NCBI RefSeq assembly: GCF_016756535.1
Contig: NZ_AP023247.1
Coordinates: 4,774,501-4,838,500 of the forward strand
DNA: 64,000 bases
Direction: 5' to 3'
From: Mesorhizobium sp. 131-2-1
Lineage (GTDB): Bacteria > Pseudomonadota > Alphaproteobacteria > Rhizobiales > Rhizobiaceae
The position numbers were made by a program, and so were the translations under genes. Of this stretch, positions 3,763 through 27,790 are shown in pieces (position 1 is the first letter of the stretch; each line of letters starts with the position of its first letter). The notes under the pieces are model-generated. The model had not been told where the DNA came from. It saw only the letters and a program-made list of their open reading frames with translations, and searched no databases.

Positions 3763-3862
3763 ACCGCGTCGCGCGGAAACGGATTCCGTCGACGCGCTTC
3801 AAGCCTTTGTTTTCATGTATGTCGTTTTCCCAAAAACCGCTGCACGCTTTTGCGCGACATGC
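3763..3862. repeat. rhizobial intergenic palindromic repeat (GCGTCGCGCGGAA type)
   Basis: Immediately after the stop codon the sequence folds as GCGTCG-CGGAA / TTCCG-CGACGC. A second stretch follows that includes GTCGTTTTCCCAAAAACCGC and CGCGACATGC. From memory this is a high-copy extragenic element of Mesorhizobium genomes. It may act as an mRNA 3'-end structure for the glycosyltransferase gene. Confidence 0.6.
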
Positions 3863-3930
3863 GGTGCGTCCGCCGCGGATCCGGCCGTTAACCTTGCGCC
3901 AGGATGGGGCCCGGCACACGGCTGATATGG

Positions 3931-3959
3931 TTGACAAATTGCTAACAAAACAATAATTT
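3931..3959 (+). promoter_or_regulatory. sigma70-type promoter for the 95-residue secreted protein
   Basis: TTGACA and TAATTT are separated by 17 bases in a locally AT-rich stretch (TTGACAAATTGCTAACAAAA). The downstream start codon follows after about 30 bases with AAGGGG as ribosome-binding site. This is one of the best consensus promoters visible in the window. Confidence 0.6.
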
Positions 3960-3989
3960 CAACGTGGTGCGTGGTGTAAGGGGCTAGTT

Positions 3990-4277
3990 ATGCGTAAGAT
4001 CCAATCGCTACTATTGGGTGGGCTTAGTATTCTTGGCGTGAGCGTCGCTTTCACTGGCGGGGCGCAGGCGCAATTCGAAGTCGGGGTCAAGGAGGCCGAG
4101 CTCGCTTGTGAGCAGGCCCTGAAGATCGGCACGATCGAGGCGCTCGAGGACTATCTGCATCGTTATCCGAATGCTCCGACGGCCTGCAAGGCGCTTGCGC
4201 TGAACACGCTGGCTCAGTTCGGTCCGAATGGCCACGACGGAGACCATGGAGACGGTGGCGGCGGCTACGGCGGATAA
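3990..4277 (+). CDS. small secreted protein with Gly/His-rich tail
   Basis: 95 residues. A clear signal peptide (MRKIQSLLLGGLSILGVSVA, cut near AQAQ) precedes a short mature domain with two cysteines (AELACEQALKIGT and NAPTACKALALN) and a low-complexity glycine/aspartate/histidine tail (GHDGDHGDGGGGYGG). AAGGGG lies at a suitable distance and a good sigma70-like promoter is upstream. The mature part resembles small periplasmic proteins common in rhizobia, with no function I can assign. Its position among the glycosyltransferases suggests an envelope role, but this is inference from neighbourhood only. Confidence 0.75.
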   Translation: MRKIQSLLLGGLSILGVSVAFTGGAQAQFEVGVKEAELACEQALKIGTIEALEDYLHRYPNAPTACKALALNTLAQFGPNGHDGDHGDGGGGYGG

Positions 4278-4314
4278 CATCTGCCGCAACTTTCCGTTCA
4301 ATCGACTGCCACGT

Positions 4315-5319
4315 TCAAGTGGCCGCGCCTTGGCGCGGCCTCGATGCGTTGGATACGGATGCGGCATATCGATCCGAGGTTCTCATCCAGCCGAGCTCCA
4401 CAAGTTGCGCGGCGTCACGGTAGCGAACGGAGCGCGGGTCCCGGAGCGACAGTTTCGGATCGCGCTCCAATGCCTCCATGTAGGCGGCGCGCTCCTCCAG
4501 CGTCTTTTCTTTGAGCTGCGTGTTCTCGCTCAGCGACGACGCTGATTTCTGGCGGAAACCCCAGACGAATTTGAAATGCAGCAGCGCGACGCGGAGCTCG
4601 CTGAACTGGACTTTGCTGATCGTGTGTTGCGCCACATGATAGCGCCTGCCCCGCTCCCATCGCACGATCGGCACCTTGGTCAGACATGGTGGGAAGGTCT
4701 GCTTGAACCGGCCGTGCCAGAAGACGCGCTCCCTGACGCCACCGAACATCTGCTGCGGAGGGTACTTGCCGTCACGCGCCCGCAGCCAACCCGGTTCCGG
4801 ATCGAAATACGGTGAGGCCTCGATAAGCGGGATCGTGCCGTCATAGTTGCCCTCCGCCAGCGGGCCGTCTGCGTACATGTCGATCATGGAGCCGATGACC
4901 GCGTCGGCGCCGGTCGAGTCGAGATAGTCGCAAAGCCAATGCAGGCCAACCCGCTCGAAATCCGGGTAGACCAGCAATTCGTCGGCGTCGATCGAGAGGC
5001 ACCAGTGGCCAGTGCCAAAGACGTTCATCAGCGTGTTGATCCAACGCGGCGGATCGATGTTCTCGGCGAAGTGCGATCCTTCCGTATGGAAGCAATGGCT
5101 GTCCGGCTGTTCCAGGATCAGTTCGAGCGTCCCGTCCGTGGAGCCATTGTCGAGGAAGAAGAAACGATCGACGCCGAGACCGCGATAGTGATCGAGAAGC
5201 TTGGGCAGCAGCGTCGCTTCATTGCGCAGTCCGACAAAGCACAGGATCTCGCCCTTGCTTACGTCGATCGGCCTATCATCGAGCCGTTCGAGGTGTTTCG
5301 GAGATCGATGGTCAAGCAT
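4315..5319 (-). CDS. glycosyltransferase family 2-like protein (Glyco_tranf_2_4 type)
   Basis: 334 residues, cytoplasmic, no signal peptide. The N-terminal GT-A core reads GEILCFVGLRNEATLLPKLL, then RFFFLDNGSTDGTLELI and the acidic motif SIDADELLVYP (D-x-D) near residue 112, which would bind the metal and sugar nucleotide. The pattern RNEA...DNGSTDGT...DADE is typical of the PF13704-like family often found in capsule, LPS or exopolysaccharide loci. It lies on the opposite strand between two giant glycosyltransferases, so the three probably act on the same surface glycan. The ribosome-binding site is weak and the start could be a few codons away. The sugar transferred is not predictable. Confidence 0.8.
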   Translation of the reverse strand: MLDHRSPKHLERLDDRPIDVSKGEILCFVGLRNEATLLPKLLDHYRGLGVDRFFFLDNGSTDGTLELILEQPDSHCFHTEGSHFAENIDPPRWINTLMNVFGTGHWCLSIDADELLVYPDFERVGLHWLCDYLDSTGADAVIGSMIDMYADGPLAEGNYDGTIPLIEASPYFDPEPGWLRARDGKYPPQQMFGGVRERVFWHGRFKQTFPPCLTKVPIVRWERGRRYHVAQHTISKVQFSELRVALLHFKFVWGFRQKSASSLSENTQLKEKTLEERAAYMEALERDPKLSLRDPRSVRYRDAAQLVELGWMRTSDRYAASVSNASRPRQGAAT

Positions 5320-5461
5320 CCGAGCGTCATGATCCGGGTTACGCGAAACGGGGTGAGGTATTGCGGCTCCGCGAACCGATTATCCCCGCGAGACAATTAT
5401 CAAAGTGTTATCCTACTGTTGGCAAGACTGTCCGCTGCGGCTGATGATCAAGGGGGACTGA

Positions 5462-8400
5462 TTGAGCATTGGTTCTAAGGTAGGCGCGACGCCCAACGGC
5501 AAGCGACAGGTAAGCCAGAAGCCCCGCAATGTATGCGTCGTATCAGAGGTCGAGTTCGGTTCGATTGTGACCGCCGATCCGGGATCGGCGACCTACGCGC
5601 TGGCGCAACACCTTGCGGTAACCGGCGATACGGTCACGCTGCTCTGGGTGCAGAACCCGATCGGCAGCCAGCCCGACGAGCAGGAGATCGCCAGGCTCGG
5701 AAAATGGTGCTTCGACAATTTCCTGGTGCGGCTTGAATTGCTGCCGCAGTCGCCCGAGCTGCTGCGCGGCCTGGATTCGAGCGACAAGCACTCGGTGGCC
5801 GTCTACCACTATCTCAAGCAGAACGCATTCGACGTCGTCTACTTCGCGCTCGAGGGCGGCCTGGCGCATTTCCCGACCGTTGCCAAGCGCACCGGGGTCT
5901 TTCCCGATCCTCCCGCGATCGTCGTGCTCGCCCACGAACCGCTGATGTGGAAGCTGCAGGCCAATGGCCAGGCGGTCGAGCGCAAGGAGCAGATGACCAT
6001 CGCGCATATGGAAAGGACATCGGCGGAGACCTGCGACCATCTCGTGGTCACCGGCCAGTCGCTGCTCGACTGGATGACCAAGGCAGGCTGGAACCTGCCC
6101 GCCAGCCGCCACGTCGCCGCCCCGCTCGTGCCTGAGGAATGGCGTTCGAACTTCCACTCCGACCACTATTGGCGGCGGCAGCGGCTCACCACCGAAATCA
6201 TTCATTTCTCAGGCACCGAGTCGCGCGGCGGGCTGACATTGTTTTGCGATGCGCTCGATCATCTGGCCGACAGCGGCGTCACCGACCTGGCGGTGACGGT
6301 CGTCGGCGCATTCGGCCATGTGCTCGGCGAGCATTCGGGTGGCATGATCGTCCGGCGCGCGCGGCAATGGCCGTTCAAACTGAAGCTGCTGCCTATTCGT
6401 GACGAACCCGATATCTTCCGATATCTGCGGCAGAGCCACGCGCTGGTGGCGATTACGCACGCGGCCGCGCAGCTTCCGATGGACGCTGTCGCATGCCTCG
6501 ACGAGGAGATCCCTTTCGTCGCCACGGACGTCGGCAGCATACGTGACATGCTGCACCCGAAGTCGGCCGACGCCGTCATGATGGAGGCGTCCGCGTCCGC
6601 CATCGCGGCCAGGATCGCGGTGGTGCTGCAAAGCGGCACGATCAGCCCGGCCAAGCCGCTGCACGGGCGTGCGGCGCGCGAGAAGGCCTGGAGCCGGCTG
6701 CACGCGAAATTCCGCCGCGAGCCGCGCAAGGCCGCGGCGCGGCGAAGCCGGCCGCCACTGGTGTCGATCATCACCGCCCACTACAACCGGGCGCGGCTGC
6801 TGCCGCAGGCGATTGCCTCGGTTCGGCGCCAGGACTATCCCAACATCGAATTGATCGTCGTCGATGACGGCAGCACCGATCCTGACGCGATCGAACTTTT
6901 GGCCGAGCTCGAACCGGAGTTCGAGCAGCGCGGCTGGCGGATCATCCGACAGAAGAATGGCTTCCTCGGCAAGGCGCGCAACACCGGCATCCGCGCCGCC
7001 AAGGGCTCGCTGATCCTGTTCCTGGACGACGACAACGCACTCTTCCCGAACGCGGTCAGTACATTCGTCTCGGGCATGCAGAATTCCGGCGCCGACATCT
7101 GCACGACCTTCGCCAAATGGCTGAACGAGCCCTTCGTGCCACCGGATACGAAGAGCGGCTACATGCTCTACTTTCCGGTCGGAGGTCCGCCTGACATCGC
7201 CCTGATCACCAATCCCTATGGCGATGCCAATGCGATGTTCCGGCGCGAGGTGTTCGACAAGGTCGGCTACCTTAACGAAGAGCGCGGCTTTTCCGCGAGC
7301 GATTGGGAGTTCTTCCTGCGCGCCGATCTGGCGGGTCTCGAGATCGTCACCGTGCCGGAGCCGCTCTATTGGTACCGGTCGGCGCCGACGGGCATGAACC
7401 GGAATGCCGAATGGCTGAGGAATCGCCGGCCGATCATCGAGGTCTTCCGCAAGCACAAATTCGCGCACACGGACATGTTCGTGCAGCTCGGCATAAGCTC
7501 GAATACCGCCAATCATGAAAAGGACCTCAACCTCTGGAACCTTGAGCTGCGCGTCAAGGACGAGCGCTATCTCCGGCTGAGCTCGGGGCCCGCCAACGCG
7601 GCCGATGCAATGCAGCTGCTGGCCGAGATCGCGGCTCGCGAGGGCAGACCGGACACCGCGATCTCGCTGCTCGCCCATGCCGGCCGGTCCGACTTCACGC
7701 TCGGCGTCGTCGACATGCTCAGCGCCGCGGCCGACGAGACCGTGCCGGAGCTGCATTCCTCGCTTTACCGCGAGCAGTACCTCTCCGCCGAGCCGCTGCG
7801 CCTTGCTCATGTCGCTTCGCATCCCGATGCCGGCACGGATTTGCTGAGCTATGTCGAACGATCGCCGGACCAGCTGTTTCTCGAAGCAAGGGGCGGCAAC
7901 GTGACGATGGCCCTGCTGAAGGGCGTCTGTCCGCCGGGCGTCATCGGCGCAAGCTGCTGGATCTACCTCGACGAGGATCTCACCGGGACGGCGCAATTCC
8001 AGCTCGCGATCGTCGATGCGGAAAACCAGACTTTCGGCGAGCTTGCCAGAATGCTCGACCAGGATGGCGGGAGCGGCTGGGCCGATGTCAGCCGGCCGCA
8101 CGAGCCGCGCGAAATAAGAACGGCCATCAGTTCGCCGGCATCGGGCCGGCGCGATCTTCTGCTCGCAGTCAGATGCGGCGGCGGACGCCCGCAGGCGCGT
8201 GTGCTGGGCGGCTTTTCGAGTATCCAGATCCGCCATGTCGTTTCGGACGGGGCGAGACACCCGCGTCTCAACGCGCCGCAGGAGCGCCGGCGCATGCGCC
8301 GGATTACCAATGACGAAATCAAGCAAGCCTCGCTCGTAACCAACCATCCCTCCGACCTGCCGACGCTGCTCGTCGCCGGCGACGATGGCGGCCTGTTCCT

Positions 8401-8761
8401 GCGGCCGAACACGCATGGCCCGGTTGTCGCGGCCCTCAAGTCGGCTTTCCCGGCTTTTGCCAGAAGCGTCGTCGCCACGGTGGAGATCGCTCATGAGGAG
8501 GCGTCTCCCTTCGAGTTCGCCATCGCGCTGGGCAGGCCGGAGGAAAAACTTTTGTGGAAAGGCGATGCCCCGACCGGTGCCCTCGCCTTCTCCGGATGGA
8601 CACGGGTTTCGCGGCCTTTCGAGCTGCAGGACTTGAAAGTCTCGATCCGGGAGATAGATCGCAAATGGCTGACGATCTACCTGGCCATCCGCCTGCCGCG
8701 AGGCTCCAAGCCGATGCCGTCCAATGCCTTCTGGCGCAAGCTGCTGCTGCTATGGGACTGA
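5462..8761 (+). CDS. giant two-domain glycosyltransferase, paralogue of the 1087 gene
   Basis: 1099 residues from a TTG start with GGGGGA eight bases upstream. Order of domains: GT-B-like region (residues about 20-390; NVCVVSEVEFG, FALEGGLAHFP, GEHSGGMIVRRARQWPFKLK), GT2 region (about 430-650; PLVSIITAHYNRARLL, VVDDGSTDPD, LFLDDDNALFP, YGDANAMFRREV), then two beta-sandwich-like modules (about 797-930 and 968-1099). The last module is shared with the 891-residue paralogue (GGLFLRPN, SGWTRVS, SNAFWRKL); the first of the two is extra here and accounts for most of the length difference. The high similarity in both catalytic halves indicates an old duplication. Likely role is surface polysaccharide assembly. 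Confidence 0.85.
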   Translation: MSIGSKVGATPNGKRQVSQKPRNVCVVSEVEFGSIVTADPGSATYALAQHLAVTGDTVTLLWVQNPIGSQPDEQEIARLGKWCFDNFLVRLELLPQSPELLRGLDSSDKHSVAVYHYLKQNAFDVVYFALEGGLAHFPTVAKRTGVFPDPPAIVVLAHEPLMWKLQANGQAVERKEQMTIAHMERTSAETCDHLVVTGQSLLDWMTKAGWNLPASRHVAAPLVPEEWRSNFHSDHYWRRQRLTTEIIHFSGTESRGGLTLFCDALDHLADSGVTDLAVTVVGAFGHVLGEHSGGMIVRRARQWPFKLKLLPIRDEPDIFRYLRQSHALVAITHAAAQLPMDAVACLDEEIPFVATDVGSIRDMLHPKSADAVMMEASASAIAARIAVVLQSGTISPAKPLHGRAAREKAWSRLHAKFRREPRKAAARRSRPPLVSIITAHYNRARLLPQAIASVRRQDYPNIELIVVDDGSTDPDAIELLAELEPEFEQRGWRIIRQKNGFLGKARNTGIRAAKGSLILFLDDDNALFPNAVSTFVSGMQNSGADICTTFAKWLNEPFVPPDTKSGYMLYFPVGGPPDIALITNPYGDANAMFRREVFDKVGYLNEERGFSASDWEFFLRADLAGLEIVTVPEPLYWYRSAPTGMNRNAEWLRNRRPIIEVFRKHKFAHTDMFVQLGISSNTANHEKDLNLWNLELRVKDERYLRLSSGPANAADAMQLLAEIAAREGRPDTAISLLAHAGRSDFTLGVVDMLSAAADETVPELHSSLYREQYLSAEPLRLAHVASHPDAGTDLLSYVERSPDQLFLEARGGNVTMALLKGVCPPGVIGASCWIYLDEDLTGTAQFQLAIVDAENQTFGELARMLDQDGGSGWADVSRPHEPREIRTAISSPASGRRDLLLAVRCGGGRPQARVLGGFSSIQIRHVVSDGARHPRLNAPQERRRMRRITNDEIKQASLVTNHPSDLPTLLVAGDDGGLFLRPNTHGPVVAALKSAFPAFARSVVATVEIAHEEASPFEFAIALGRPEEKLLWKGDAPTGALAFSGWTRVSRPFELQDLKVSIREIDRKWLTIYLAIRLPRGSKPMPSNAFWRKLLLLWD

Positions 8762-8817
8762 CGAGCACGCCTGCCGCGGTTGCCACCTTGCCGCAGTAAA
8801 GAATGCTGCATTAGACT

Positions 8818-8921
8818 AGAGCGGTTCATCGTTTTCATGGAAACGATGAACCGCTCTATCTCTTTGTTTTTGCGCAATTCCGGACGGAAAACCGTTTCAC
8901 ACTTTTGCTGGAATTGCTCTA
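8818..8921. repeat. rhizobial intergenic mosaic repeat, two palindromes
   Basis: AGAGCGGTTCATCGTTT and AAACGATGAACCGCTCT form a perfect 17-bp stem around a six-base loop. A second palindromic half follows, beginning GCGCAATTCCGGACGGAAAA and ending GGAATTGCTCT. The second half recurs in inverted orientation at 27723. The element sits between two coding genes, as RIME-type elements do. Confidence 0.7.
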
Positions 8922-8946
8922 AGCCGCAGCAGGAGGCGCCAAGACA

Positions 8947-9723
8947 ATGAAGAAATCATTCATTCTTGTTCTGGCCTTTATTAGCACTGTTGCAAGTGCG
9001 GTGTCTTTCGGCGCGGCGGCCCAGCAACGTGACGTTGGCCCGAACTGCACGCAGTGGAATTCCTATCGCGTCCTCTTCAACAAGGGCGACGGCAAGATAT
9101 CCAAGGATTCCGCCAACGCGTTGAAGGCCTTCATCAAGGATGCCGGGAAGGATTGCGGCTACAGGCTCTATGCGACGGCAAGCAAGGAAGGCAGCTACAA
9201 CAAGGCCAACGACATTGCCGGCCGCAGGCTGGACGTAACCAGCGATTTCCTCAAGGCGCAAGGCGTCAAGCCGGAAATGGTGCTGGCGCTCGCGCACTGG
9301 GTCGACGATGGCGCCGCCGACACGAACAAGGCGCGCAGCGCGATCCTGTACACCTTACCGAAGCAAGGGATATCATGCCGGCAATACGAGAAGCGCGCCC
9401 CTGCGCAGGTCGCCCTCTTCTTCTACAGCCAGTCCTCGGTGATCTCACCGCAGGTCAAGGACGACCTCGACAAGTTCGCCGCCAGCATCAAAGACTCGCG
9501 CTGCAATGTCGAACTGACAGCTTTGGCGGCAAAGGAGCTGACCGGCGCCGCCGCCGCAAAGGCGAACAAGGAACTGGCCAGGCAGCGCGTGAAAGCGATG
9601 GTGGATATCTTGACCGCGGCCGGGATCGACAGCGACCGGCTCATAGACACGAATGTCGAATACGTAGGCGACAGCAAGCCGAACACCGCCAATAATCGCC
9701 TAGCGACCGCGTCGCTGATGTAG
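8947..9723 (+). CDS. secreted protein with two degenerate OmpA-like repeats
   Basis: 258 residues with signal peptide (MKKSFILVLAFISTVASAVS, cleavage near AAAQQ) and a strong GGAGG site upstream. The mature chain has two similar halves. Each starts with a beta strand (YRVLFNKGDGKISKDS and VALFFYSQSSVISPQ), continues with a helix (NALKAFIKDAGKDC; DDLDKFAASIKDSRC) and ends with the register A-x-x-R-x-x-x-V-x-x-F/L-x-x-x-G (GRRLDVTSDFLKAQGV; RQRVKAMVDILTAAGI). That is the layout of the OmpA C-terminal peptidoglycan-binding domain, but the canonical NxxL(S)xxRA motif is eroded, so binding is uncertain. Periplasmic or outer-membrane associated. Possibly part of the neighbouring glycan locus. Confidence 0.7.
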   Translation: MKKSFILVLAFISTVASAVSFGAAAQQRDVGPNCTQWNSYRVLFNKGDGKISKDSANALKAFIKDAGKDCGYRLYATASKEGSYNKANDIAGRRLDVTSDFLKAQGVKPEMVLALAHWVDDGAADTNKARSAILYTLPKQGISCRQYEKRAPAQVALFFYSQSSVISPQVKDDLDKFAASIKDSRCNVELTALAAKELTGAAAAKANKELARQRVKAMVDILTAAGIDSDRLIDTNVEYVGDSKPNTANNRLATASLM

Positions 9724-9766
9724 CGGCACGCGCAACCTGCCGGCGCGTTCAGCCGCTCGGCGGCGG

Positions 9767-10981
9767 TCAGCCCGGCAGCAGCTGGATGCCCCGGTTGCGG
9801 GCCATCAGCCAGCGCAGACCGCACGCCAGCACGACGTTGAGCAGCGCAAGAGCACCGAGAACGGCGAGCGTGCCCTGCGCTCCTGTCCACTGCATCAGCA
9901 GCGCGCCCATCGATGGCGCGGCCGCCTGGGCGATCAGGCTCGGCATGGCAAGGCGGCCCATCAATCTCGCGTAGCCCGACGGCCCGAACAGAGCGAGCGG
10001 CAGGGTTCCCCGCGCGATCGATTCGAGGCCGATGCCGGCGCCATAGAAGCCAAGCGCCACAGGCACTGCCGGCATGCCGGCCCATAGGGCCAGGACACCG
10101 ATGGCGACAAAGCTCGCCGAGGCAAGCTTGGTCCAGATTGGATGATGGTAGCGCGCGATCATCATTTCGACGGCGCGTGCCGTCACCTGCGCGGGACCGA
10201 CGAGAGCGCCAAGACCGACCGCAGCGGCGAGCGCCAGGCCGCCGGCCTGGAGGATCGACAGCAGATGCACCGAGAGCGTAGAGGAAATCACCGCCGCAAG
10301 CGTGATGGTGGTGGCGAGCAGGGCCATGACGGGCAAGGACGGGTTGACTGGCTGCGCCGCGGCGGTGTTGCGGGCGGTTTCGGACACGGCACTGCGTTGC
10401 GGCACGGTGCGCGGAAGCAATGTGAGATAAAGCGGCAGCGCGATGAGGAGCTGCACGGCGGCATAGGCGAGGCAGGCGCCGCGCCAGCCGATCGCGCTCA
10501 ACAGGAAAGCCGAAATCGGCCAGCAGACGGTGCTGGCGAAGCCGCCGAACAGGGTCAGCGTGGTGATGGCCGAACGCGCGCTGCTGCCGTAGAGGCGGCC
10601 AAGCGTGGCGAAGGCGGCGTCATAGAGCCCTGCCCCCATGCCGAGCCCGATGACCAGCCAGGCTCCGATATAGACGGCAAGCGAAGGCGCCGCGGCCATG
10701 CCGATCTGGCCGGCGCCGATGCAGACGGCGCTGAAGGCGAGCACATTGCGGCCGCCATGGCGCTCGATCGAGGAGCCGACGCGCGGCGATATCAGGCCGG
10801 CGACCAGAAGCCCAAGCGACAAGCCGCCAACCACCCATGCCAGCGGCCAGCCGGTATCACGGGCCACCGCCGGCGCGATGACCGCCGGCAGATAGTAGGA
10901 CGAGCCCCACGCCATGATCTGCGTCAGGCCGAGCACGGTGATGATCGTGCCGCGGCCGCGCATGCCGGCCGTGATGCTCAT
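9767..10981 (-). CDS. MFS transporter of the first ars operon
   Basis: 404 residues, about twelve membrane segments (for example IITVLGLTQIMAWGSSYYLP, VVGGLSLGLLVAGLI, AVYIGAWLVIGLGMGAGLY). The start ATG overlaps the stop of the upstream flavoprotein by four bases (ATGA), so the two are translationally coupled. MFS proteins in this position, after an arsR and a flavin monooxygenase-like gene, are found in several arsenic clusters and are presumed to export an arsenical product; this assignment rests on context. The first cytoplasmic loop (ISPRVGSSIERHGGRNVL) is a typical MFS loop 2-3. There are no cysteine clusters, so direct As(III) recognition is not obvious. Confidence 0.8.
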   Translation of the reverse strand: MSITAGMRGRGTIITVLGLTQIMAWGSSYYLPAVIAPAVARDTGWPLAWVVGGLSLGLLVAGLISPRVGSSIERHGGRNVLAFSAVCIGAGQIGMAAAPSLAVYIGAWLVIGLGMGAGLYDAAFATLGRLYGSSARSAITTLTLFGGFASTVCWPISAFLLSAIGWRGACLAYAAVQLLIALPLYLTLLPRTVPQRSAVSETARNTAAAQPVNPSLPVMALLATTITLAAVISSTLSVHLLSILQAGGLALAAAVGLGALVGPAQVTARAVEMMIARYHHPIWTKLASASFVAIGVLALWAGMPAVPVALGFYGAGIGLESIARGTLPLALFGPSGYARLMGRLAMPSLIAQAAAPSMGALLMQWTGAQGTLAVLGALALLNVVLACGLRWLMARNRGIQLLPG

Positions 10982-19055: not shown

Positions 19056-19532
19056 ATGCCCGATACGAAGCGAACACCGACCGGCAAGGCCTTGAGCGAT
19101 CTCATCCTCGACCTGTTCAGGCTGAACAGCCGCATCAGCGCGGCGGGCGACAGGCTGGTCGCCGATCTCGGCCTGACCAGCGCCCGTTGGCAGGTGCTGG
19201 GCGCCATCGTCGCTGCCGAGCGTCCGCAGCCGGTGGCGTGGCTGGCGCGCGATCTCGGCGCCAACCGCCAGAACGTGCAGCGCATCGTCAACGACCTCGA
19301 GGGCGAAGGGCTGGTCGCCTTCAGGACCAACCCGCATCACCGGCGGGCCCAGCTTGTCGTGCTGACCGTCGAGGGGCGCAAAGCCTACGACGCCGCCATG
19401 CGCCTGCAGGCCCCCTGGATCAACAACCTCGCCGACGGTCTTTCCGTCGAGGACATCAACACCATGCACGGCGTGATCATGGCGCTGCGCAAAAAACTGG
19501 AAGGCAACGATGACGTCGAAGATCAGAGTTGA
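19056..19532 (+). CDS. MarR-family transcriptional regulator
   Basis: 158 residues. A winged helix-turn-helix at residues about 50-95 (VAWLARDLGANRQNVQRIVN, then DLEGEGLVAFRTNPHHRRAQ) with the wing and the DxRxxx-like RRAQLVVLT turn of MarR proteins. The flanking helices (ILDLFRLNSRISAAGDRLVA and LRKKLEGND) would form the dimer interface. It probably represses the divergent ABM monooxygenase gene and itself; a phenolic or oxidant ligand is usual in the family, but the signal here is unknown. Confidence 0.85.
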   Translation: MPDTKRTPTGKALSDLILDLFRLNSRISAAGDRLVADLGLTSARWQVLGAIVAAERPQPVAWLARDLGANRQNVQRIVNDLEGEGLVAFRTNPHHRRAQLVVLTVEGRKAYDAAMRLQAPWINNLADGLSVEDINTMHGVIMALRKKLEGNDDVEDQS

Positions 19533-19688: not shown

Positions 19689-20843
19689 GTGCCCGATAGC
19701 ACCATACTCGTCACCGGAGCGCGCTCGCCGGTGGCGCTGCATCTGGCACGGCTGCTGCATGACGCCGGACGGCGGGTGATCCTCGCCGACACACCTGCCC
19801 GCCCGATTGCTGCCGCCAGCGTGGCCTGCGCACGCTACTACCGCCTGCCGCCACCGCGCTTCGAGCCGGCGGCCTACGCCGAGGCGGTCGAGGCGCTGGT
19901 GCGCGTCGAAGGGATTGGCCTGGTCATCCCGACCTGCGAAGAGATCTTCCATCTGGCGCTCGCCTGGCGCGACCGCACGATCCCGGCTCGCCTGTTCGCG
20001 CCCGGCATCGAGCTGCTCGCTGAAGTCCACAACAAACATACCTTCATCCGGCTGGCCGAACGGCTCGGCCTGGCGGTGCCGGAAACGGTGCTGCTGCAAT
20101 CGCGCGACGATCTGGAGGCCATGCGCGGCCACGCGCGCGAACTGGTGTTCAAGCCGGTGTGGTCGCGCTTTGCCAGCCATGTGCTTTTGCGCCCCTCGCC
20201 CGGCGAACTCGATGCCGTCAATCCCTCGCCCGCCGCGCCCTGGGTGGCACAGCGTTTCGTGCCGGGCGAGGAGATCAGCGCCTATGCGGTGGCGCGCGGC
20301 GGCAGGCTCAAGGCATTCTCGCTCTACCGATCGCTCTTCCGTGCCGGCAAAGGCGCCGGCATCTTGTTCGAGCCGGTCGATGACACGGCGGCGCGGCGGC
20401 TGGTCGAGCGCATCGTCGCCGCCACGTCATGGACCGGACAGATCTCCTTCGACCTGATGCGGCAGACGGAAGGAAGGGTGTTGCCGCTGGAATGCAACCC
20501 GCGCGCAGTCAGCGGCCTGCATTTCTTCCGCGATCCAGCTCGCTTTGCCGAAGCTTTGCTGGGAGACGGCCTGGAAGTCGGGCCCGACATCACCGCGCCC
20601 CAGACGGTGCGGCTCGCCATGTGGATCTATGGGCTGCCGGCGGCCTTGCGCACCGGCGGCCTCGGCCGCTTCCGCAAGGCGATGCGCGAGACCGAGGAAT
20701 TGCTCGACTGGCCGGGCGACCCGGCGCCGGTGAAGGCGCAATGGGCGGCGCTGGCCGAGATCGCCGGCGTCGCGCTTCGTGAGCGCATCAGCCTGCAGGC
20801 GGCGTCGACCCGCGACATCGAATGGAACGGGCCGAACGAATGA
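19689..20843 (+). CDS. ATP-grasp ligase, convergent to the 21-27 kb operon
   Basis: 384 residues from a GTG start. The N-terminal Rossmann-like pre-ATP-grasp region reads ILVTGARSPVALHLARLLHD. The ATP-grasp core follows: FKPVWSRFASHVLL (lysine for ATP), WVAQRFVPGEEISAYAVARG, and the metal site near SFDLMRQTEGRVLPLECNPR (E-x-N). Such single-chain ATP-grasp proteins form amide or thioester bonds through an acyl phosphate, as in carbamoyl-phosphate synthase-like or peptide ligase families. It ends 51 bases from the end of the oppositely transcribed operon and could supply its final ligation step. The actual substrates cannot be read from the sequence. Confidence 0.75.
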   Translation: MPDSTILVTGARSPVALHLARLLHDAGRRVILADTPARPIAAASVACARYYRLPPPRFEPAAYAEAVEALVRVEGIGLVIPTCEEIFHLALAWRDRTIPARLFAPGIELLAEVHNKHTFIRLAERLGLAVPETVLLQSRDDLEAMRGHARELVFKPVWSRFASHVLLRPSPGELDAVNPSPAAPWVAQRFVPGEEISAYAVARGGRLKAFSLYRSLFRAGKGAGILFEPVDDTAARRLVERIVAATSWTGQISFDLMRQTEGRVLPLECNPRAVSGLHFFRDPARFAEALLGDGLEVGPDITAPQTVRLAMWIYGLPAALRTGGLGRFRKAMRETEELLDWPGDPAPVKAQWAALAEIAGVALRERISLQAASTRDIEWNGPNE

Positions 20844-20894: not shown

Positions 20895-21911
20895 TCACAG
20901 CTCGATCTGATGCACCCTTGGCTCGCTTGCCGCCGGCGGCAGGTCCCCCGCCATGATCGCGGCGATGTCGCGGCGCATGAAATCGAGCGGCCCGATCACC
21001 GGCAGCGCCGGTGGCGCAACGCGGGCGTTGTCGCTTGCCGATTTCAGCACGCGGCGATCCTGCTGCAGGGCGATGTTGAACAGCGGCTTGAAGGCGAGTG
21101 CCTTGAGCTGGCCGAGCCAGCCCTGGCGCGGGCCGATCAGCCAGCCGATGCCCTCGACGGTGCGCTCGTCGGCCTGGCGCAGATGGAAGGTGGTGGCGAG
21201 GGCCAGCCCGTCCTTGCTCCAATATTCCAGTTCGGCGATGCCGGGATGGCGGAAGCGGCCGATTGTTCTCGCCCGCTCGCCCTCCAGCAGCCGGCTGATC
21301 AGCCCCTGTTGCCGATCCTCGCCGGTGTAGCAGGCCTCGACCCAACCCTCGCCGCCGGTCACCTCGACGCGCACGAGATGGCGCTTCGAACCCAGGCCGC
21401 GCAGCAGGCCCTTGTGGGTGAAGTGGGTGTGGGTGGCATCGAGGATGTTCTCGGCGGCGTCGATCACCGTCGATTGCGTCGAGCTGCGCACCCGCCGCAC
21501 GACGACATCCTTGCCCTGCATGCAATGGAGATAGGGCTCGCCATCCGGGGTGCCGGACGAGACGAAGACGACGCCATCGCGCTCGATGACACCAAAGCGG
21601 CGGAGGCGGTAATGCGGCATCTCGCCGACATGACCTGGAATGGCGGTGCAGCGGCCTTCGCCGTCATAGCGCCAACCGTGATAGGGGCATTCGATCTCGC
21701 CGCCGACGACCTTGCCGGTCGACAGTTCGACCAGCCGGTGCGGGCAACGGTCGAACAGCGCCGCGATGCCCTGGGCCGAGCGGAACAGGACGACAGGCTG
21801 GCCGTCGAACAGGATGCGCCTGGGCCTGCGCCTGATGTCGGCCGACAGCGCCACCGCCTGCCAGTGATCCTTGCGCTCGTGATCTTCCCTGTGCCTTTGG
21901 CGCACGCTCAC
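20895..21911 (-). CDS. Rieske non-haem iron oxygenase alpha subunit-like protein
   Basis: 338 residues from a GTG overlapping the upstream stop by four bases. The Rieske cluster ligands are CPHRLVELS and, 18 residues on, CPYHGW (C-x-H...C-x-x-H). The catalytic domain has the mononuclear iron motif AENILDATHTHFTHKG (D-x-x-H-x-x-x-x-H) of the pheophorbide-a-oxygenase/vanillate demethylase group. Such enzymes hydroxylate, demethylate or desaturate with an electron-transfer partner; no ferredoxin or reductase is encoded nearby, so a housekeeping one is presumably used. It is the last gene of the six-gene operon, where it probably performs the oxidative tailoring step. Confidence 0.88.
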   Translation of the reverse strand: MSVRQRHREDHERKDHWQAVALSADIRRRPRRILFDGQPVVLFRSAQGIAALFDRCPHRLVELSTGKVVGGEIECPYHGWRYDGEGRCTAIPGHVGEMPHYRLRRFGVIERDGVVFVSSGTPDGEPYLHCMQGKDVVVRRVRSSTQSTVIDAAENILDATHTHFTHKGLLRGLGSKRHLVRVEVTGGEGWVEACYTGEDRQQGLISRLLEGERARTIGRFRHPGIAELEYWSKDGLALATTFHLRQADERTVEGIGWLIGPRQGWLGQLKALAFKPLFNIALQQDRRVLKSASDNARVAPPALPVIGPLDFMRRDIAAIMAGDLPPAASEPRVHQIEL

Positions 21912-23053
21912 AGTTCGAACCTCCTGAGCAGGGGAATGCCGACCAGCGCCGCCACGGTTTCCATGACGCGGATCGCCGCGCGCCGGCGGCGCGAAAGGTG
22001 GCCGGCATAGACGGCGTTGTATTCGATGGCCGCCACGGCGCCACGCAGTCGCTTGAAGCCGGCCGCCCCGGCGCTCATGTTGAAGAACAGGCCGTGCGCG
22101 GTCGCATGCTCCTGCGCCATCGCCATCACCATGCGATAAAGTCCTTCCTGCATCGGCAGGCCGGTGTCGTAGCCGACGATGGGCTGGGTCAGCGTGCGGC
22201 CATTCTCGAACAGGCCGGTGACGGCGACGAGTTGCCCACCCGGCCGGCGCAGGCCGGCGAGGCTGATGATGCCGCGCCGGTGCATCTCGGCAATGTAGCG
22301 GGCGGTGTAGTGCGGATTGAGCGGCGTGTACTTTTCCAGATAGAGCATGTTGTAGAGTTCTTCCGCGCGCGCATAGTCGGCTTCGCTGAAATCGGCGTCG
22401 CCGACGCGCTCGAAAGGCGTGGTGGCGAGCTGCTTGCGGTCGCGCTTCATGTTGTTGGTCATGGCGGGTGCCGCGCCGCGGTCGGCGAAGATGTAGATCT
22501 GGCGCGCCGCCAGCATGCGGAAACCTTCGGCCTTCAGCGCCGCTATGGTAGCGGGATCGGCGATCTCGTTCAGGGAGCGAATGACGATGGCGCGGTCCGG
22601 GAAACGCGCCACAAGGTCGGCGCGCAACGCGGCGATCGCGGCACGGTCGAGCAGCGGCACCGGGTTGGTCGAATAGAGCCAGTTGTTGAGCTGAACCTGA
22701 TGGTCGAGACCACTCGCCCGCACCAGCGGCGCGCAGGCGCCGATCAGCGCCGTGAGCGAGCGCCGCAGCAAGGGATGCGCGATGAAATTGCGCGTCTCGT
22801 CGACGGCATAGTCGACATAGGCGCTGGAAGGGCAGCAGATATAGCAGTTTGGCGCTTCGCCGGCATCGTTTAGAGTCAGCGGGAGGATCCGGCCGGCGAC
22901 CGCAGCGCTTGCGACCGATGTCGTGAGGTTGGCAACGAGATCTCGCACCGGCACGTCGTTGAAGAGCCGCACGAAAGCCTCGACCTTGGCCGGATCGTTC
23001 TCGACCCGGTCGGCTTGTTGACGCGCCCCCTCTATGATGGCGGCCGGACTCAC
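21908..23053 (-). CDS. GNAT/FemAB-like acyltransferase-type protein
   Basis: 381 residues from a GTG that overlaps the upstream stop by four bases, the same coupling as its neighbours; a GTG seven codons earlier is possible. The chain has no certain Pfam match by eye. The C-terminal half (DADFSEADYARAEELYNMLY, GQLVAVTGLFENGRTLTQPI, YRMVMAMAQEHATAHGLFFN) follows the order of a GNAT-like N-acyltransferase core, and the N-terminal half (VQLNNWLYSTNPVPLLDR, IVIRSLNEIADPATIAALKA) is a second alpha/beta lobe, as in bilobal Fem-type transferases. Possible role: acyl or aminoacyl transfer to an amine in the pathway product. Assignment is tentative. Confidence 0.55.
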   Translation of the reverse strand: MSPAAIIEGARQQADRVENDPAKVEAFVRLFNDVPVRDLVANLTTSVASAAVAGRILPLTLNDAGEAPNCYICCPSSAYVDYAVDETRNFIAHPLLRRSLTALIGACAPLVRASGLDHQVQLNNWLYSTNPVPLLDRAAIAALRADLVARFPDRAIVIRSLNEIADPATIAALKAEGFRMLAARQIYIFADRGAAPAMTNNMKRDRKQLATTPFERVGDADFSEADYARAEELYNMLYLEKYTPLNPHYTARYIAEMHRRGIISLAGLRRPGGQLVAVTGLFENGRTLTQPIVGYDTGLPMQEGLYRMVMAMAQEHATAHGLFFNMSAGAAGFKRLRGAVAAIEYNAVYAGHLSRRRRAAIRVMETVAALVGIPLLRRFEL

Positions 23054-24321
23054 GGCGCCGCTCCAAGCCTGCACTCGACGCGGCGCAATTTACGGCCGGT
23101 CTCCAATGGCAGTTCCGTCCGAATGAGGCCGACTGTCGCCGTTGCCTTGCGCGCCGCCAGCAGTGTGCGCACCGCCTGAAGCGCTGCGGCGGCCGCTTCA
23201 TCGGAGAGACCGGGCGCCAGCCTGAGTTCGATGGCATCGGGCGCGATCTGGATCAGCCTAAAATCGTCGACGCGGCGGTCGGCCTTGAGCACCGCGTTGC
23301 GAAGGATGTCGGGCGTGAGCAGGATTTCACCGTCGGCCGAAGCCAGCCGGAAGACATCGTCCATACGGCCGGCGATCTCGTCGACGCAGCGCAGCGGCGA
23401 ACCGCAGCGGCATGGTCTTTCGGAGAGCCGCAACAGGTCGTTCATCCTGTATCGGGCCATGATCTGGGTCTGGCGACGGAAGGCCGTGACCAGCGGCGTC
23501 ACCAACCCGTCGCCGGCAGGCTCGAACTCGAAGAACACCGAATCCTCGGCGAGATGCAGGCCGCCCTGCCGGCAGGTCACCGCGAACAGCCCTTCGGTCG
23601 CCATGTAGATCTGGTCGAGCGGCAGCCGGAAGAAATCTTCGATAACCGGACAGTCGACCGGATCGAGCGTCTCGGCGGCCGAGAAGACGCGCCGCGGCGC
23701 GAGCCGGAAGCCGGCGCTTGCGAAATGGCGAAGCATCTTCGGCGGCGCGATGATCACCGTCGGGTCGAAGGCTTCGAGGTCCGCTCGCCAGCTTTCCGGC
23801 CCAAGCGTCAGATCGAAGAAGGCGAGCCTGATCAGCCGGGATTTGCGAGCGCTGTCGTAAAGCCCGGTGTTCTGCGGCAGGATGACGGCGACACGCATGC
23901 CGCGCCAGATGAGGTCAGGCGCAGCCTTGGCGAGGATCGCGCCCAGCCAGCGGTATCTTTCCGCCTCGGAGATGACGAACAGGCCGCGATTGCCGGATGT
24001 ACCGGTGCTAGCTCCGACAGTGAGCGCGCCAACCGTCAGGTCGCCGAGGCGGCCGTCGGCGGAAGCGGCGGCCCAGGCATCGCGGGCCGACACGCCGCCG
24101 ACGTTGAAGCGCTCGAAATTCGCCATCAGCAGCGCCTTGTCTGTGATAGCCAGGTCACCGAGCTGACGCGGCGCCTGGCCGTAGAACGGCGCCAGCGGCA
24201 GGTCCTGGTCGAGCCAACGGCGCAGGGCGGCCGCCTGCCAGCGCTCGAAGGCCGGTCGGGTCTTGCGCGAGACCCAGCGCGTCAGGGCGAAGGAGCCGAT
24301 GGCTTCCGCGAGCCCGTTCAT
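23050..24321 (-). CDS. F390-synthetase-related adenylate-forming enzyme
   Basis: 423 residues, start ATGA overlapping the MBL gene stop. It belongs to the PaaK/F390-synthetase branch of the ANL adenylating superfamily. The phosphate loop reads GASTGTSGNRGLFV, the aryl/acyl and adenine contact YMATEGLFAV, and the hinge region ARYRMNDLLRLSERPCRCGSP, then GRMDDVFRL. The Cys-x-Cys in PCRCG is typical of this branch. These enzymes activate a carboxylate as an acyl adenylate, then pass it to CoA, a phosphate or an amine. TIGR02304-like F390-related proteins have no known substrate. In this operon it may activate the chain made by the ketosynthase. Confidence 0.8.
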   Translation of the reverse strand: MNGLAEAIGSFALTRWVSRKTRPAFERWQAAALRRWLDQDLPLAPFYGQAPRQLGDLAITDKALLMANFERFNVGGVSARDAWAAASADGRLGDLTVGALTVGASTGTSGNRGLFVISEAERYRWLGAILAKAAPDLIWRGMRVAVILPQNTGLYDSARKSRLIRLAFFDLTLGPESWRADLEAFDPTVIIAPPKMLRHFASAGFRLAPRRVFSAAETLDPVDCPVIEDFFRLPLDQIYMATEGLFAVTCRQGGLHLAEDSVFFEFEPAGDGLVTPLVTAFRRQTQIMARYRMNDLLRLSERPCRCGSPLRCVDEIAGRMDDVFRLASADGEILLTPDILRNAVLKADRRVDDFRLIQIAPDAIELRLAPGLSDEAAAAALQAVRTLLAARKATATVGLIRTELPLETGRKLRRVECRLGAAP

Positions 24322-25157
24322 CCGGACGCCGCCGCCAGTTCGTCCGCCGTCAGGTCGTATTGCGTCATCTCCGGGTCGTGGCAGAGCATCACCTGCCCGC
24401 CCGCCGCCTGGAAGCGGCGCAGCGTCTCGCAGGCCGGACCGATGGCGGCAACGTCCTCGGCGATGAGGCTGGAGGGAAAGCCTGGCGCGCGCTTCGGATC
24501 GAGCGCGGCCAGCAGCCATTGCGCGTCGACCCCATAGAGCAGCGGCCGCTCCAGCCCGGCGAACAGAAGGCCGAACTGGCCGTCTGCATGACCGGGAAGG
24601 TCGACCGCGATTACGCTGCCGTCGCCAAACAGATCGGCGCCGCCGGGCACGCCACCACGGGCCTCGACCCTCCGCTTGCCGGAGAGCCTGTCGAGCCGCG
24701 TCTCGAAATCGACGGGGAAGAGCTCCGTGAAGACGCCGTGGCGCAGGTTCTGCCGGGGCGTGCGCGCCTTGACGCGCGCCCAGGCGGCATCGCTGGCGAT
24801 GAAGCGGGCGTTGGGGAACAGCGCCAGGCCGGAAATATGGTCTGCATGGAAATGGGTGACGATGACCGCGCGCACATCGCCGGGCGCAAGGCCGAAGCGA
24901 TCGAGCACCGGCGGCACCTGCTCGGCCGCGTTGAGCTCGGGCCTGAGCACGGCGCCATAGAGCCGCAGCATCCGGCCGCGCCCCTCCCCCGTGGTGGCTT
25001 CTGGCGTGTAGCCGGTGTCGACCAGCACCGGCCCGGCCTGCGGATGAATGAACAGCCCGTAGCGCACGCGCAGCCTGACGCTTTGCCAGCCGCCGCCGCG
25101 CAGGATCAGCCGCTCGGTGGCGCTGACCCAGGCGCTGTTGGCGAAGGTGATCTTCAT
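24318..25157 (-). CDS. metallo-beta-lactamase fold hydrolase
   Basis: 279 residues. The zinc motif HFHADHISGL (HxHxDH) lies near residue 105, followed by DLPGHADGQFGLLF and the later ligand in VMLCHDPEMTQY, which is the layout of lactonase and thioesterase members of the fold. N-acyl-homoserine lactonases carry the same HxHxDH...H...D...H set, so lactone or thioester hydrolysis is plausible. The gene is flanked by four-base overlaps on both sides, which argues that it is an integral step, for instance release or proofreading of the product. No signal peptide; cytoplasmic. Confidence 0.82.
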   Translation of the reverse strand: MKITFANSAWVSATERLILRGGGWQSVRLRVRYGLFIHPQAGPVLVDTGYTPEATTGEGRGRMLRLYGAVLRPELNAAEQVPPVLDRFGLAPGDVRAVIVTHFHADHISGLALFPNARFIASDAAWARVKARTPRQNLRHGVFTELFPVDFETRLDRLSGKRRVEARGGVPGGADLFGDGSVIAVDLPGHADGQFGLLFAGLERPLLYGVDAQWLLAALDPKRAPGFPSSLIAEDVAAIGPACETLRRFQAAGGQVMLCHDPEMTQYDLTADELAAASG

Positions 25158-26137
25158 GCCAGGCGTCCGCCGGCGAAGGTGCGGTCGAGCCCCTGCTCGA
25201 ACGGGATTTTCGGCGCCCAGCCGAGCAGTCGGCGCGCCTTGGCGAGGTCGAGGCTTTGCGCATAGGCGAACAGGCCAAGCCCGTAGCGCGTCACCGGCGG
25301 CTCGGGACGGCCGGGCAGAGCGAGCGCCACGGCCTCCATGGCGCCGGCTGCCAGCATGGCCGGCCACAGCGGCATGCGCCGCCAGCGTACTGTTATGCCA
25401 GCGCGGGCGCAGGCCTCGTCGGCGATGCGGCGCACCGGCAGCACCTCGCCGCCGGAGACGTTGTAGATCTGGCCCTCGGCCTCCCGAGGCGCGGCGAGCG
25501 CCGCCATGACCGCATCGACGACGTCGTCGACATGGGTGAGGTCGATACGCGCCCGTCCATCGCGGAAGACCGGCAGCGGGCGGCGCTTCGCGGCCTTGAT
25601 GAGGCGCGGCAAGAGCGCGCGGTCGCCGGCGCCATAGATGCCGCGTGGCCTGAGCACCACCGGGTGGGTGGCGGGCGCCGCCAGCACCAGCCGCTCGGCC
25701 TCGCGCTTGGTGCGGGCATAGTGGTTGACCGGTTCCGGCAGCGCCGCTTCCTCGGCAAGATCGAGCTGGTCGCGAAAGGCGAAGCACACCGACGAGCTGG
25801 AGATGTGGACGAAGCGGCTGACGCCTTGCCGGGTTGCGAAATCGAGGAGGTTTCGCGTCGCCTGGACATTGGCCGCTTCGAAATCCGCCAGCCGGCCGAA
25901 GGGCGCGGAGAGCGCCGCGCAGTGGATGATCCGCTCGACTTTGCCCAACCTCGGATCGAGCGACCTGTCGAGTGGCCGGGACAGGTCCTGGCGGGTGATT
26001 CGATGGCCGGCGGCCTCCAGCGCCGCACAGCGGTTCGCATCTCGGCCGAGGCCAAGCGCCAGCGTGCCGGACGCTGCCAGCCGTTCCAGCACGTGTGAGC
26101 CGAGGAAGCCGCTGGCGCCGGTGACGAGCACGGCCAT
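25154..26137 (-). CDS. extended SDR (NAD-dependent epimerase/3beta-HSD-like reductase)
   Basis: 327 residues. The cofactor loop reads VLVTGASGFLGSHVLERLAA, and the catalytic tyrosine/lysine pair is NHYARTKREAERL (YxxxK) preceded by ISSSSVCF. YARTKxxAE is typical of the 3beta-hydroxysteroid dehydrogenase-like and OleD-like extended SDRs. These reduce or epimerise bulky ketones. It starts two bases after the KASIII stop, so the likely substrate is a 3-keto product of that enzyme; a sugar nucleotide is less likely, since no sugar genes are in the operon. Confidence 0.83.
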   Translation of the reverse strand: MAVLVTGASGFLGSHVLERLAASGTLALGLGRDANRCAALEAAGHRITRQDLSRPLDRSLDPRLGKVERIIHCAALSAPFGRLADFEAANVQATRNLLDFATRQGVSRFVHISSSSVCFAFRDQLDLAEEAALPEPVNHYARTKREAERLVLAAPATHPVVLRPRGIYGAGDRALLPRLIKAAKRRPLPVFRDGRARIDLTHVDDVVDAVMAALAAPREAEGQIYNVSGGEVLPVRRIADEACARAGITVRWRRMPLWPAMLAAGAMEAVALALPGRPEPPVTRYGLGLFAYAQSLDLAKARRLLGWAPKIPFEQGLDRTFAGGRLA

Positions 26138-26139
26138 GG

Positions 26140-27129
26140 TCAGGCCTCCAGCGCCATGCCGCCGAAGGACACGCCGGCCGAGGTGCCGAGGAACAGCAGC
26201 CTGGCGCCCGGCGCGATCCGGCCCTCACGCCGCGCAATGTCGAGCGCGAAGGGAATGGAAGCGGCGATCTGGTTGCCGTAGCGGGCAGAGATGTCGACGA
26301 GCTTTTCCGGCGCAAAGCCGGTCTGGCGCGCCATATGCGCGAGCGCGAACGGGCTTGCCTGATGCGGCACGATGAGGTCGACATCCTCGTGCCGCCAGCC
26401 GGCGCGCTGCAGAAGCTCGGTGACGAAGCCGTTGAAGTGGCGCGAGGTGACGCGGAACAATTCCTTGCCGTCCATGTGGAACAGGCTGTGGCGGGCAAAT
26501 TCCTCCGGCTGGCTGTGGAAATCGAAACGGGTGCCGCCGGAGCCGATGCCGCAGGCCTCGTAGGCCGAGGGGTAGGTGCGCATCAGATTTGCCGCCACCC
26601 TGCCCTCGCGAGGCTTGGCCCCTTGCAACACCGCCGCCGCCGCGCCGTCGCCGAAGAGTGCCGCGACCTCCGGCTGGTCGCGCCACGGCAGGGCGCGCGA
26701 GGCGACCTCCGAGGAGAACACCAGCGCTGTCTTGCTCTGCCCTGCCTCGATCAGGCGTGAGGCGGTCTCGAAGGCGGTGAGGAAGCCAAGGCAGGTGCTG
26801 TTGACGTCGAAGGCGGCGGCCGAGCCATCGGCAAGGCCAAGGCGCTGCATGACGAGCGGCGACGTCGCGGGCAGCGGCTGATACGGCACGCCGCAGCCGC
26901 CGATGATCAGGTCAACGGCGCTCGCCTCGATCCCTGCATCCTCAAGTGCAAGCTTCGCTGCCGTGCAAGCGAGATCGATCTGCGATTCGCCTTCGCACAC
27001 ATAGCGCTCGACGACACCGGTGGCGGCTTCAAGCCGACCTTTTTCAAGGCCAAACCGTTCCTCCAGCGCGCGCGAGGTCACGCATTGAGTCGGCACCGCC
27101 CCACCGGTTCCGATGATATTGATGCGCAT
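26140..27129 (-). CDS. beta-ketoacyl-ACP synthase III-like ketosynthase
   Basis: 329 residues from ATG; a TTG six bases earlier is the longer option. The thiolase-fold catalytic triad is intact: Cys in FDVNSTCLGFLTAF, His in DLIVPHQASPFALAHM and Asn in YGNQIAASIPFALD. The C-terminal LLFLGTSAGVSFGGMALE is also typical. FabH would normally sit with plsX or other lipid genes; here it heads a tailored operon, so it more likely makes a specialised acyl or beta-keto product, as OleA-like or CerJ-like homologues do. As first gene it probably starts the pathway by condensing or transferring an acyl group. Confidence 0.85.
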   Translation of the reverse strand: MRINIIGTGGAVPTQCVTSRALEERFGLEKGRLEAATGVVERYVCEGESQIDLACTAAKLALEDAGIEASAVDLIIGGCGVPYQPLPATSPLVMQRLGLADGSAAAFDVNSTCLGFLTAFETASRLIEAGQSKTALVFSSEVASRALPWRDQPEVAALFGDGAAAAVLQGAKPREGRVAANLMRTYPSAYEACGIGSGGTRFDFHSQPEEFARHSLFHMDGKELFRVTSRHFNGFVTELLQRAGWRHEDVDLIVPHQASPFALAHMARQTGFAPEKLVDISARYGNQIAASIPFALDIARREGRIAPGARLLFLGTSAGVSFGGMALEA

Positions 27130-27709: not shown

Positions 27710-27722
27710 CACCGCGCCTCTA

Positions 27723-27771
27723 AAGCAATTCCAGGAAAAGTGTGTAGCGGTTTCCGTCAGGAATTGCGTCA
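27723..27771. repeat. rhizobial intergenic repeat, single unit
   Basis: AGCAATTCCAGGAAAAGTGT followed by GTAGCGGTTTCCGTCAGGAATTGCG. It is a close inverted copy of the second half of the repeat at 8818-8921 (AATTCC...GGAATT ends with the CGGTTTYCGTC core). It separates pepA from holC. Confidence 0.65.
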
Positions 27772-27790
27772 AAACATCGAGTTGGAGGCG

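Follow-up and report, generated by a model that had tools for sequence, protein, structure and literature searches.

What do six closely packed genes on the minus strand of the Mesorhizobium sp. 131-2-1 genome (7.1 Mb, two contigs) make, and do they belong together outside this strain? They lie at positions 20895–27129 of the window, a 64,000 bp stretch of contig NZ_AP023247.1 (4,774,501 to 4,838,500), and an original prediction, made from the DNA alone, described them as an operon for a ketoacyl synthase III-type ketosynthase (KASIII), an extended short-chain dehydrogenase/reductase (SDR), a metallo-beta-lactamase-fold hydrolase (MBL), an F390-like adenylating enzyme (F390), a GNAT-like transferase and a Rieske oxygenase. 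Pfam and NCBIfam scans agree with these family labels. Conservation of the gene order beyond this genome was the test named beforehand, and the order of the first four genes, KASIII-SDR-MBL-F390, is indeed conserved in several classes and phyla. The six families do not make up one conserved set, though: this four-gene core is widespread, but GNAT and Rieske, together with an ATP-grasp ligase, are one of several interchangeable modules. The conserved unit is real but consists of seven genes, the convergent ATP-grasp gene having been overlooked. We put the probability at roughly 0.5 that the locus is a cassette for a small, probably lipid-like metabolite, whose core supplies a hydroxy-acyl scaffold that is given its polar head by the module.

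Genome contigs were scanned with an alignment of 13 adenylating enzymes (at least 593 pattern matches), and 80 loci were taken from the 587 confirmed relatives; a further 12 loci were opened from the 46 plasmid records with a match. Profiles built for each gene family were searched against 148 loci and the window. Because the F390 gene was the entry point for all loci, every co-occurrence is conditional on it. The complete core is present in at least 85 loci (the window, 10 of the 12 plasmid loci and 74 of the 80 genome loci), and these are distributed over nine alphaproteobacterial orders, the Beta- and Gammaproteobacteria, the Bacilli, and metagenome-assembled genomes (MAGs) of the Clostridia and the Acidobacteriota; a MAG labelled Flavobacteriaceae (L068) may be misbinned. 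The core is incomplete in six genome loci (L043, L072, L084, L105, L115 and L119), five of them near a contig end, and L119 has no recognisable SDR and an MBL in two pieces. Brevibacillus reuszeri NIT02 has two cluster versions, L119 and L120, separated by about 25 kb of the same contig. The arrangement varies. The five Bacilli loci have the order KAS-ATPgrasp-SDR-MBL-F390, with GNAT next in L034, L117 and L120, and in the sphingomonads and several other groups F390 stands apart from, and mostly divergent to, a KAS-SDR-MBL-ATPgrasp-GNAT-Rieske series. The seven families have correlated pairwise distances (Spearman 0.55 to 0.85, values that near relatives inflate), as genes that travel together would be expected to have.

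The distribution is patchy: 8 of 397 genomes from the order and 7 of 398 from the phylum have an adenylating enzyme that exceeds the cut-off. Core DNA is present in 672 of 5426 complete Escherichia coli genomes, located on the chromosome in 670 cases and on a plasmid in 2. An enterobacterial version, its gene content read from one opened locus (L038, 5164-12045), has seven genes between narI and purU, namely the core, a PAP2 phosphatase, an OlsE-like hydroxylase and a desaturase. The F390 gene has no match among 50,697 phage records (E 1e-5). At the DNA level no near-identical copy is found among 72,556 plasmid records; the two records that match cover 27% of the query at 73.4% identity and 12% at 75.5%. 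Two Pseudomonas megaplasmids lack the compact core: in L036 only F390 and an ATP-grasp-like gene are recognised, and in L037 KASIII, SDR pieces, MBL, F390 and an ATP-grasp-like gene are spread, with hypothetical genes in between, across at least 12 kb. Adenylating enzymes below the cut-off (L024-L028, L127-L148) have core neighbours in none of 27 loci, which are only 2.6-4.2 kb long; three others scoring 155-190 bits (L153-L155) all have SDR, MBL and ATP-grasp, which speaks against the TIGR02304 cut-off as the border of the group.

The modules beside the core are exchangeable. Of the 85 full-core loci, 62 have an ATP-grasp module, in which GNAT and Rieske may or may not be included, 7 a GT1-type glycosyltransferase, 6 DUF3419, 3 a sulfotransferase and 1 the PAP2/hydroxylase/desaturase set; in 6 no module was recognised. 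ATP-grasp is never found together with another module (0 of 85; hypergeometric 3e-13 in a count that ignores kinship). Pfam confirms DUF3419 in all six of its loci, sulfotransferase domains in 3 of 3, and glycosyltransferase domains in the three scanned of the seven; the OlsE-like hydroxylase of the enterobacterial version scores 66.6 bits against a cut-off of 475. DUF3419 is the family of BtaA, an enzyme that transfers the aminocarboxypropyl group of S-adenosylmethionine. In a quick tree of 68 loci (17 of the 85, Mesorhizobium near-copies, being dropped, and with SH-like approximate likelihood ratio test support only), well supported branches force at least five changes of the DUF3419 label, five acquisitions being the simplest account, and nine are needed for all labels taken together. 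The same core has thus been joined repeatedly to different end-group enzymes.

In L031, L083 and L109, GNAT is kept and DUF3419 stands in the place of ATP-grasp; the DUF3419 partner there (HYP31) is a GNAT by profile comparison (probability 100, E 2.4e-99), and DUF3419 therefore replaces ATP-grasp and not GNAT. No GNAT was recognised in the DUF3419 loci L069, L070 and L092. The module gene of L069 (DUF3419), L073 (sulfotransferase), and L102 and L107 (glycosyltransferase) overlaps the F390 stop codon by 4 bp, in the slot that GNAT has in the window. We also note that L109 (3421-9059) has two DUF3419 genes, one paired with GNAT and the other between Rieske and MBL. Frames beside the core in L035 and L066 match neither Pfam nor the module profiles, and frames beside L077, L079 and L116 were rejected as modules, their products being a peptidase, an exchanger, an RtcB-like protein and a DUF2812 protein.

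The core enzymes carry complete sets of catalytic residues. The KASIII triad (Cys113, His256, Asn286) is present in all 85 relatives, the SDR residues Ser113, Tyr140 and Lys144 are kept in 22 of 22, and all seven MBL metal ligands (HxHxDH and further) are likewise found in 22 of 22. In the adenylating enzyme, Thr108-Gly110 (TSG), Glu243 (TEG), Gly318-Arg319 and Asp321-Asp322 (the GR-DD hinge) and the C-terminal Lys411 are conserved in 13 of 13. Its match to TIGR02304, 'F390 synthetase-related protein' (266.9 bits, cut-off 251.9), is the only one among the six minus-strand genes to exceed a curated NCBIfam cut-off, and its solved relatives are PaaK-type. The best NCBIfam match of the SDR is OleD (171.3 bits, below the equivalog cut-off of 580); the window protein is 30-33% identical to two OleD proteins, and the SDR profile scores the OleD of L162 at 261 bits. 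The best solved relatives of the MBL are acyl-homoserine lactone (AHL) lactonases, at 112 bits, although membership of the AttM AHL-lactonase equivalog is rejected (65.5 bits against 390). In L077 (4957-7188) the KASIII frame stays open for about 400 codons further upstream without a Pfam domain, probably because of a wrong start and not a fusion.

Structural second looks covered the best 50 entries, and further families may lie outside these. The label 'GNAT-like transferase' holds in that the protein has a PF13480 GNAT-type domain, but the fold is the double-GNAT of the FemX/MprF aminoacyl-tRNA transferases; Phe333-Lys334 is invariant in 34 of 34 relatives, Lys334 being a candidate counterpart of the catalytic FemX Lys305, and identity to FemX/MprF transferases, including streptothricin Sbb17 and DhpH-C, is 10-14%. 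The Rieske [2Fe-2S] ligands Cys56, His58, Cys75 and His78 are invariant in 12 sequences, as are Asp158 and His161, with His166 in at least 90%; the nearest types are O-demethylases and sterol-demethylases.

Each reaction and the kind of product are inferred here, and how the steps follow one another is a guess. The PaaK/F390-like enzyme would convert a carboxylic acid to an acyl adenylate, and the CorB/MxnB-type KASIII would join acyl chains, probably held on host carrier proteins, into a beta-keto thioester. The OleD-like reductase would reduce the beta-keto group to a beta-hydroxyl, hydrolysis of a thioester or lactone by the lactonase-type MBL would release or reopen the product, and the exchangeable module would put a polar end group on the hydroxy-acyl scaffold. 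In Mesorhizobium, the FemX/MprF-like transferase would pass an amino acid from aminoacyl-tRNA, the ATP-grasp ligase would make an amide or ester bond, and the Rieske oxygenase would hydroxylate. An acyl scaffold with a head-accepting group is proposed because the modules are a glycosyltransferase, a sulfotransferase, DUF3419, and an OlsE-like hydroxylase with a desaturase. The product is probably fatty and hydroxylated, with an end group that differs by lineage. Several points weigh against this proposal: six full-core loci have no recognised module, no carrier-protein gene was seen near the core in a survey of reading frames of at least 90 residues, a lactonase-type hydrolase does not fit neatly, and the nesting of CorB/MxnB is not firm.

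Three other readings draw on the same enzymes. The resemblance of the SDR to OleD suggests an Ole-like route, with KASIII as OleA, the F390-like enzyme as OleC (the beta-lactone synthetase) and the MBL as a lactonase replacing OleB; head-to-head fusion of two fatty acyl chains would be followed by reduction and closure to a beta-lactone, which would then be opened or kept, as it is kept in lipstatin-type lactones. OleABCD shows the same division of labour, bringing together a condensing enzyme, an OleD-like reductase, an adenylating enzyme and a lactone-acting hydrolase. However, the position of the glutamate of OleA (E117) and PpyS is I in 49 and L in 36 of the 85 KASIIIs, and with the KASIII profile OleA reaches 110 bits, less than three of the four other KASIII-type proteins of the same genome (214-234 bits). 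The OleC and OleB proteins of L162 are not matched by the F390 and MBL profiles, respectively, the enzymes here being PaaK-type and not OleC-type, and an MBL and not an alpha/beta hydrolase, and end-group modules are present. OleABCD membership is rejected on the missing glutamate and the lack of OleB and OleC relatives, and we think an Ole-like route unlikely.

The logic of adenylating enzyme, KASIII, MBL and oxygenase is also that of PqsABCDE(H), and the solved structures related to the MBL and KASIII include PqsE and PqsD/PqsC. The F390-like enzyme could then act as PqsA on an aryl or acyl acid, KASIII as PqsD/PqsC, the MBL thioesterase as PqsE and Rieske as PqsH, giving a diffusible signal or toxin. 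A PqsE-type identity of the MBL is nevertheless rejected, at about 30 bits compared with 112 for the AHL lactonases; there is no PqsB partner, Pqs does not share the SDR and end-group modules, and the glycosyltransferase, sulfotransferase and DUF3419 modules would, we infer, suit an acyl scaffold better. Signalling of this kind seems more doubtful still. The least probable of the three, to which we give little weight, is a catabolic operon, in which lactonase, acyl-CoA ligase, dehydrogenase and Rieske oxygenase would degrade an external lactone or aromatic compound, for example in quorum quenching, with KASIII acting as a thiolase. The affinities of the MBL to AHL lactonases and of Rieske to demethylases agree with this, and a flank survey found one recurrent ABC-transporter ATPase family in 11 loci, at no fixed position (two loci standing for Mesorhizobium), which leaves room for uptake; yet the full Cys-His-Asn condensing triad in 85 of 85 and the anabolic modules (glycosyltransferase, sulfotransferase, DUF3419, FemX-like and ATP-grasp) argue for synthesis. 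A defence function was rejected, with 0 PADLOC families for the seven proteins.

For the cassette that builds a scaffold and adds a head, the closest counterparts of the condensing enzyme are the stand-alone ketosynthases MxnB and CorB of myxopyronin and corallopyronin synthesis. These group with the KASIIIs apart from FabH with support of 100/99 (27 of the 85 KASIIIs, with OleA and L005 left out); when OleA and L005 are included, support is 92/84 for FabH plus L005. MxnB and CorB end polyketide synthase (PKS) assembly lines, and to our knowledge their pathways contain no SDR-MBL-F390 set; here, no PKS gene was recognised beside the core. They share with the KASIII here a Gln three residues before a conserved Pro and, according to PMC4578411, a non-acidic residue where OleA and PpyS have the glutamate. 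Ornithine lipids (Ols) and betaine lipids (BtaA) have amino-acid-type heads on acyl chains, as is proposed here, and the enterobacterial version shares its OlsE-like hydroxylase with the ornithine lipid systems. We know of no Ols or BtaA operon that holds a dedicated KASIII, MBL or F390-like enzyme. A tentative extension, which we hold with clearly less confidence than the cassette itself, is that the core represents an undescribed class of two-chain (alpha-alkyl, beta-hydroxy) acyl scaffold, made by CorB/MxnB-type fusion and OleD-type reduction and given lineage-specific polar heads. If so, the heads would be an amino acid, aminocarboxypropyl, sulfate or a sugar, across several phyla and about one in eight complete E. 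coli genomes, and this would be a new head-group-variable lipid family outside the glycerolipid and sphingolipid pathways.

That no described pathway has this exact gene set, as had been claimed, agrees with the open-licence PMC literature, in which no description of the cluster was found; studies in closed journals, or using other names, lie outside this search. Neither 'TIGR02304' nor 'F390 synthetase-related protein' is named there, and the examined passages that contain 'F390 synthetase' are single mentions, none describing this cluster. One proposes that, in a fatty-acid cluster of a different organism, glycerol is attached by a ligase annotated as F390 synthetase, and another is an entry in the table of a plant-pathogen transposon screen, which does not imply a family link to TIGR02304. 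The cluster belongs to the KASIII-type biosynthetic clusters and would be more than that if its product were a new lipid class. A four-gene core ordered alike across Proteobacteria, Bacillota and Acidobacteriota with swapped modules marks a sizeable blank in bacterial lipid and secondary metabolism. The pattern of exchange predicts the same scaffold with different heads, and the presence of core DNA in E. coli means that the compound may occur in strains many laboratories have.

Within Mesorhizobium the seven genes are an accessory chromosomal cassette. An adenylating enzyme over the cut-off is present in 18 of 37 genomes of the genus (including that of the window) and in 0 of 24 from other families of the order. 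In the cluster-free genome G033 the left flank (L167 from 4850) leads to the gene for DNA polymerase III chi, at 7845; G009 has the same left flank (81% identical, L170 1-3080), then all seven genes (3417-10872), with chi from 10927. From this empty-site comparison, with the genes jointly absent in one genome and jointly present in the other, the seven genes form a presence/absence unit. The G009 cassette is bracketed by a direct repeat of the chi 3' end (L170 2992-3075 and 10927-10998), the extra copy being 84 bp and 94% identical to that of the window; this suggests entry at the 3' end of chi, to judge by the repeat. A second copy of the chi 3' end was not seen in the window or L169. The cluster-free G003 has a 223 bp stretch (L166 7050-7272), about 650 bp from chi, that is 77% identical to the ATP-grasp gene (window 19957-20178) and is read as a trace of a lost copy. 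The chi gene is on the KASIII side in 18 of 21 named Mesorhizobium loci, and an ATP-grasp relative is at the same place in all 21 and in Shinella and Rhizobium plasmids.

Features of the seven-gene locus and its junctions (window positions).
Feature	Position	Strand	Evidence
KASIII-type ketosynthase, CorB/MxnB group, core gene 1	26140..27129	-	PF08541/PF08545
Extended SDR, OleD-like reductase, core gene 2	25154..26137	-	Best NCBIfam match OleD
MBL-fold hydrolase, AHL-lactonase type, core gene 3	24318..25157	-	Metal ligands; AHL lactonases are nearest solved structures
PaaK/F390-like adenylating enzyme, core gene 4	23050..24321	-	TIGR02304
FemX/MprF-like double-GNAT transferase, module gene	21908..23053	-	PF13480 GNAT-type domain
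Rieske oxygenase, module gene	20895..21911	-	PF00355
ATP-grasp ligase, convergent seventh gene, module gene	19689..20843	+	
KASIII/SDR junction: 2-bp gap, TGA-CC-ATG	26138..26139	-	DNA sequence
SDR/MBL junction: ATGA overlap	25154..25157	-	DNA sequence
MBL/F390 junction: ATGA overlap	24318..24321	-	DNA sequence
F390/GNAT junction: GTGA overlap	23050..23053	-	DNA sequence
GNAT/Rieske junction: GTGA overlap	21908..21911	-	DNA sequence

The arrangement of the six minus-strand genes, with a 2-bp gap followed by four RTGA overlaps, is borne out by the DNA. The KASIII start is ATG, with an alternative TTG 6 bases upstream that also fits, and the Rieske gene has a second candidate GTG start 6 bases downstream, use of which would abolish the GNAT/Rieske overlap. 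The ATP-grasp and Rieske genes converge, with their ends 51 bp apart. Across the 85 full-core loci, with start codons picked by script, 4-bp overlaps are found at 60 of 85 SDR>MBL, 50 of 71 MBL>F390, 24 of 34 F390>GNAT and 41 of 48 GNAT>Rieske junctions; most KAS>SDR junctions are short gaps, and 12 of 80 are 4-bp overlaps. Such four-base stop/start overlaps are commonplace in bacterial operons, the seventh gene is on the opposite strand, and gene order and strand vary among the relatives, F390 being divergent from the remaining genes in other lineages (e.g. L080, L087 and L111). The earlier suggestion that the coupling implies fixed stoichiometry is therefore dropped. A MarR-family regulator gene (19056-19532) lies upstream of the ATP-grasp gene and has the same orientation. 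The interval between chi and the leucyl aminopeptidase gene holds a dispersed repeat of about 68 bp (27720-27788), presumably resembling a rhizobial intergenic mosaic element, of which there are 10 to 33 matches, 85-96% identical, in each Mesorhizobium genome examined, cluster-free and cluster-bearing.

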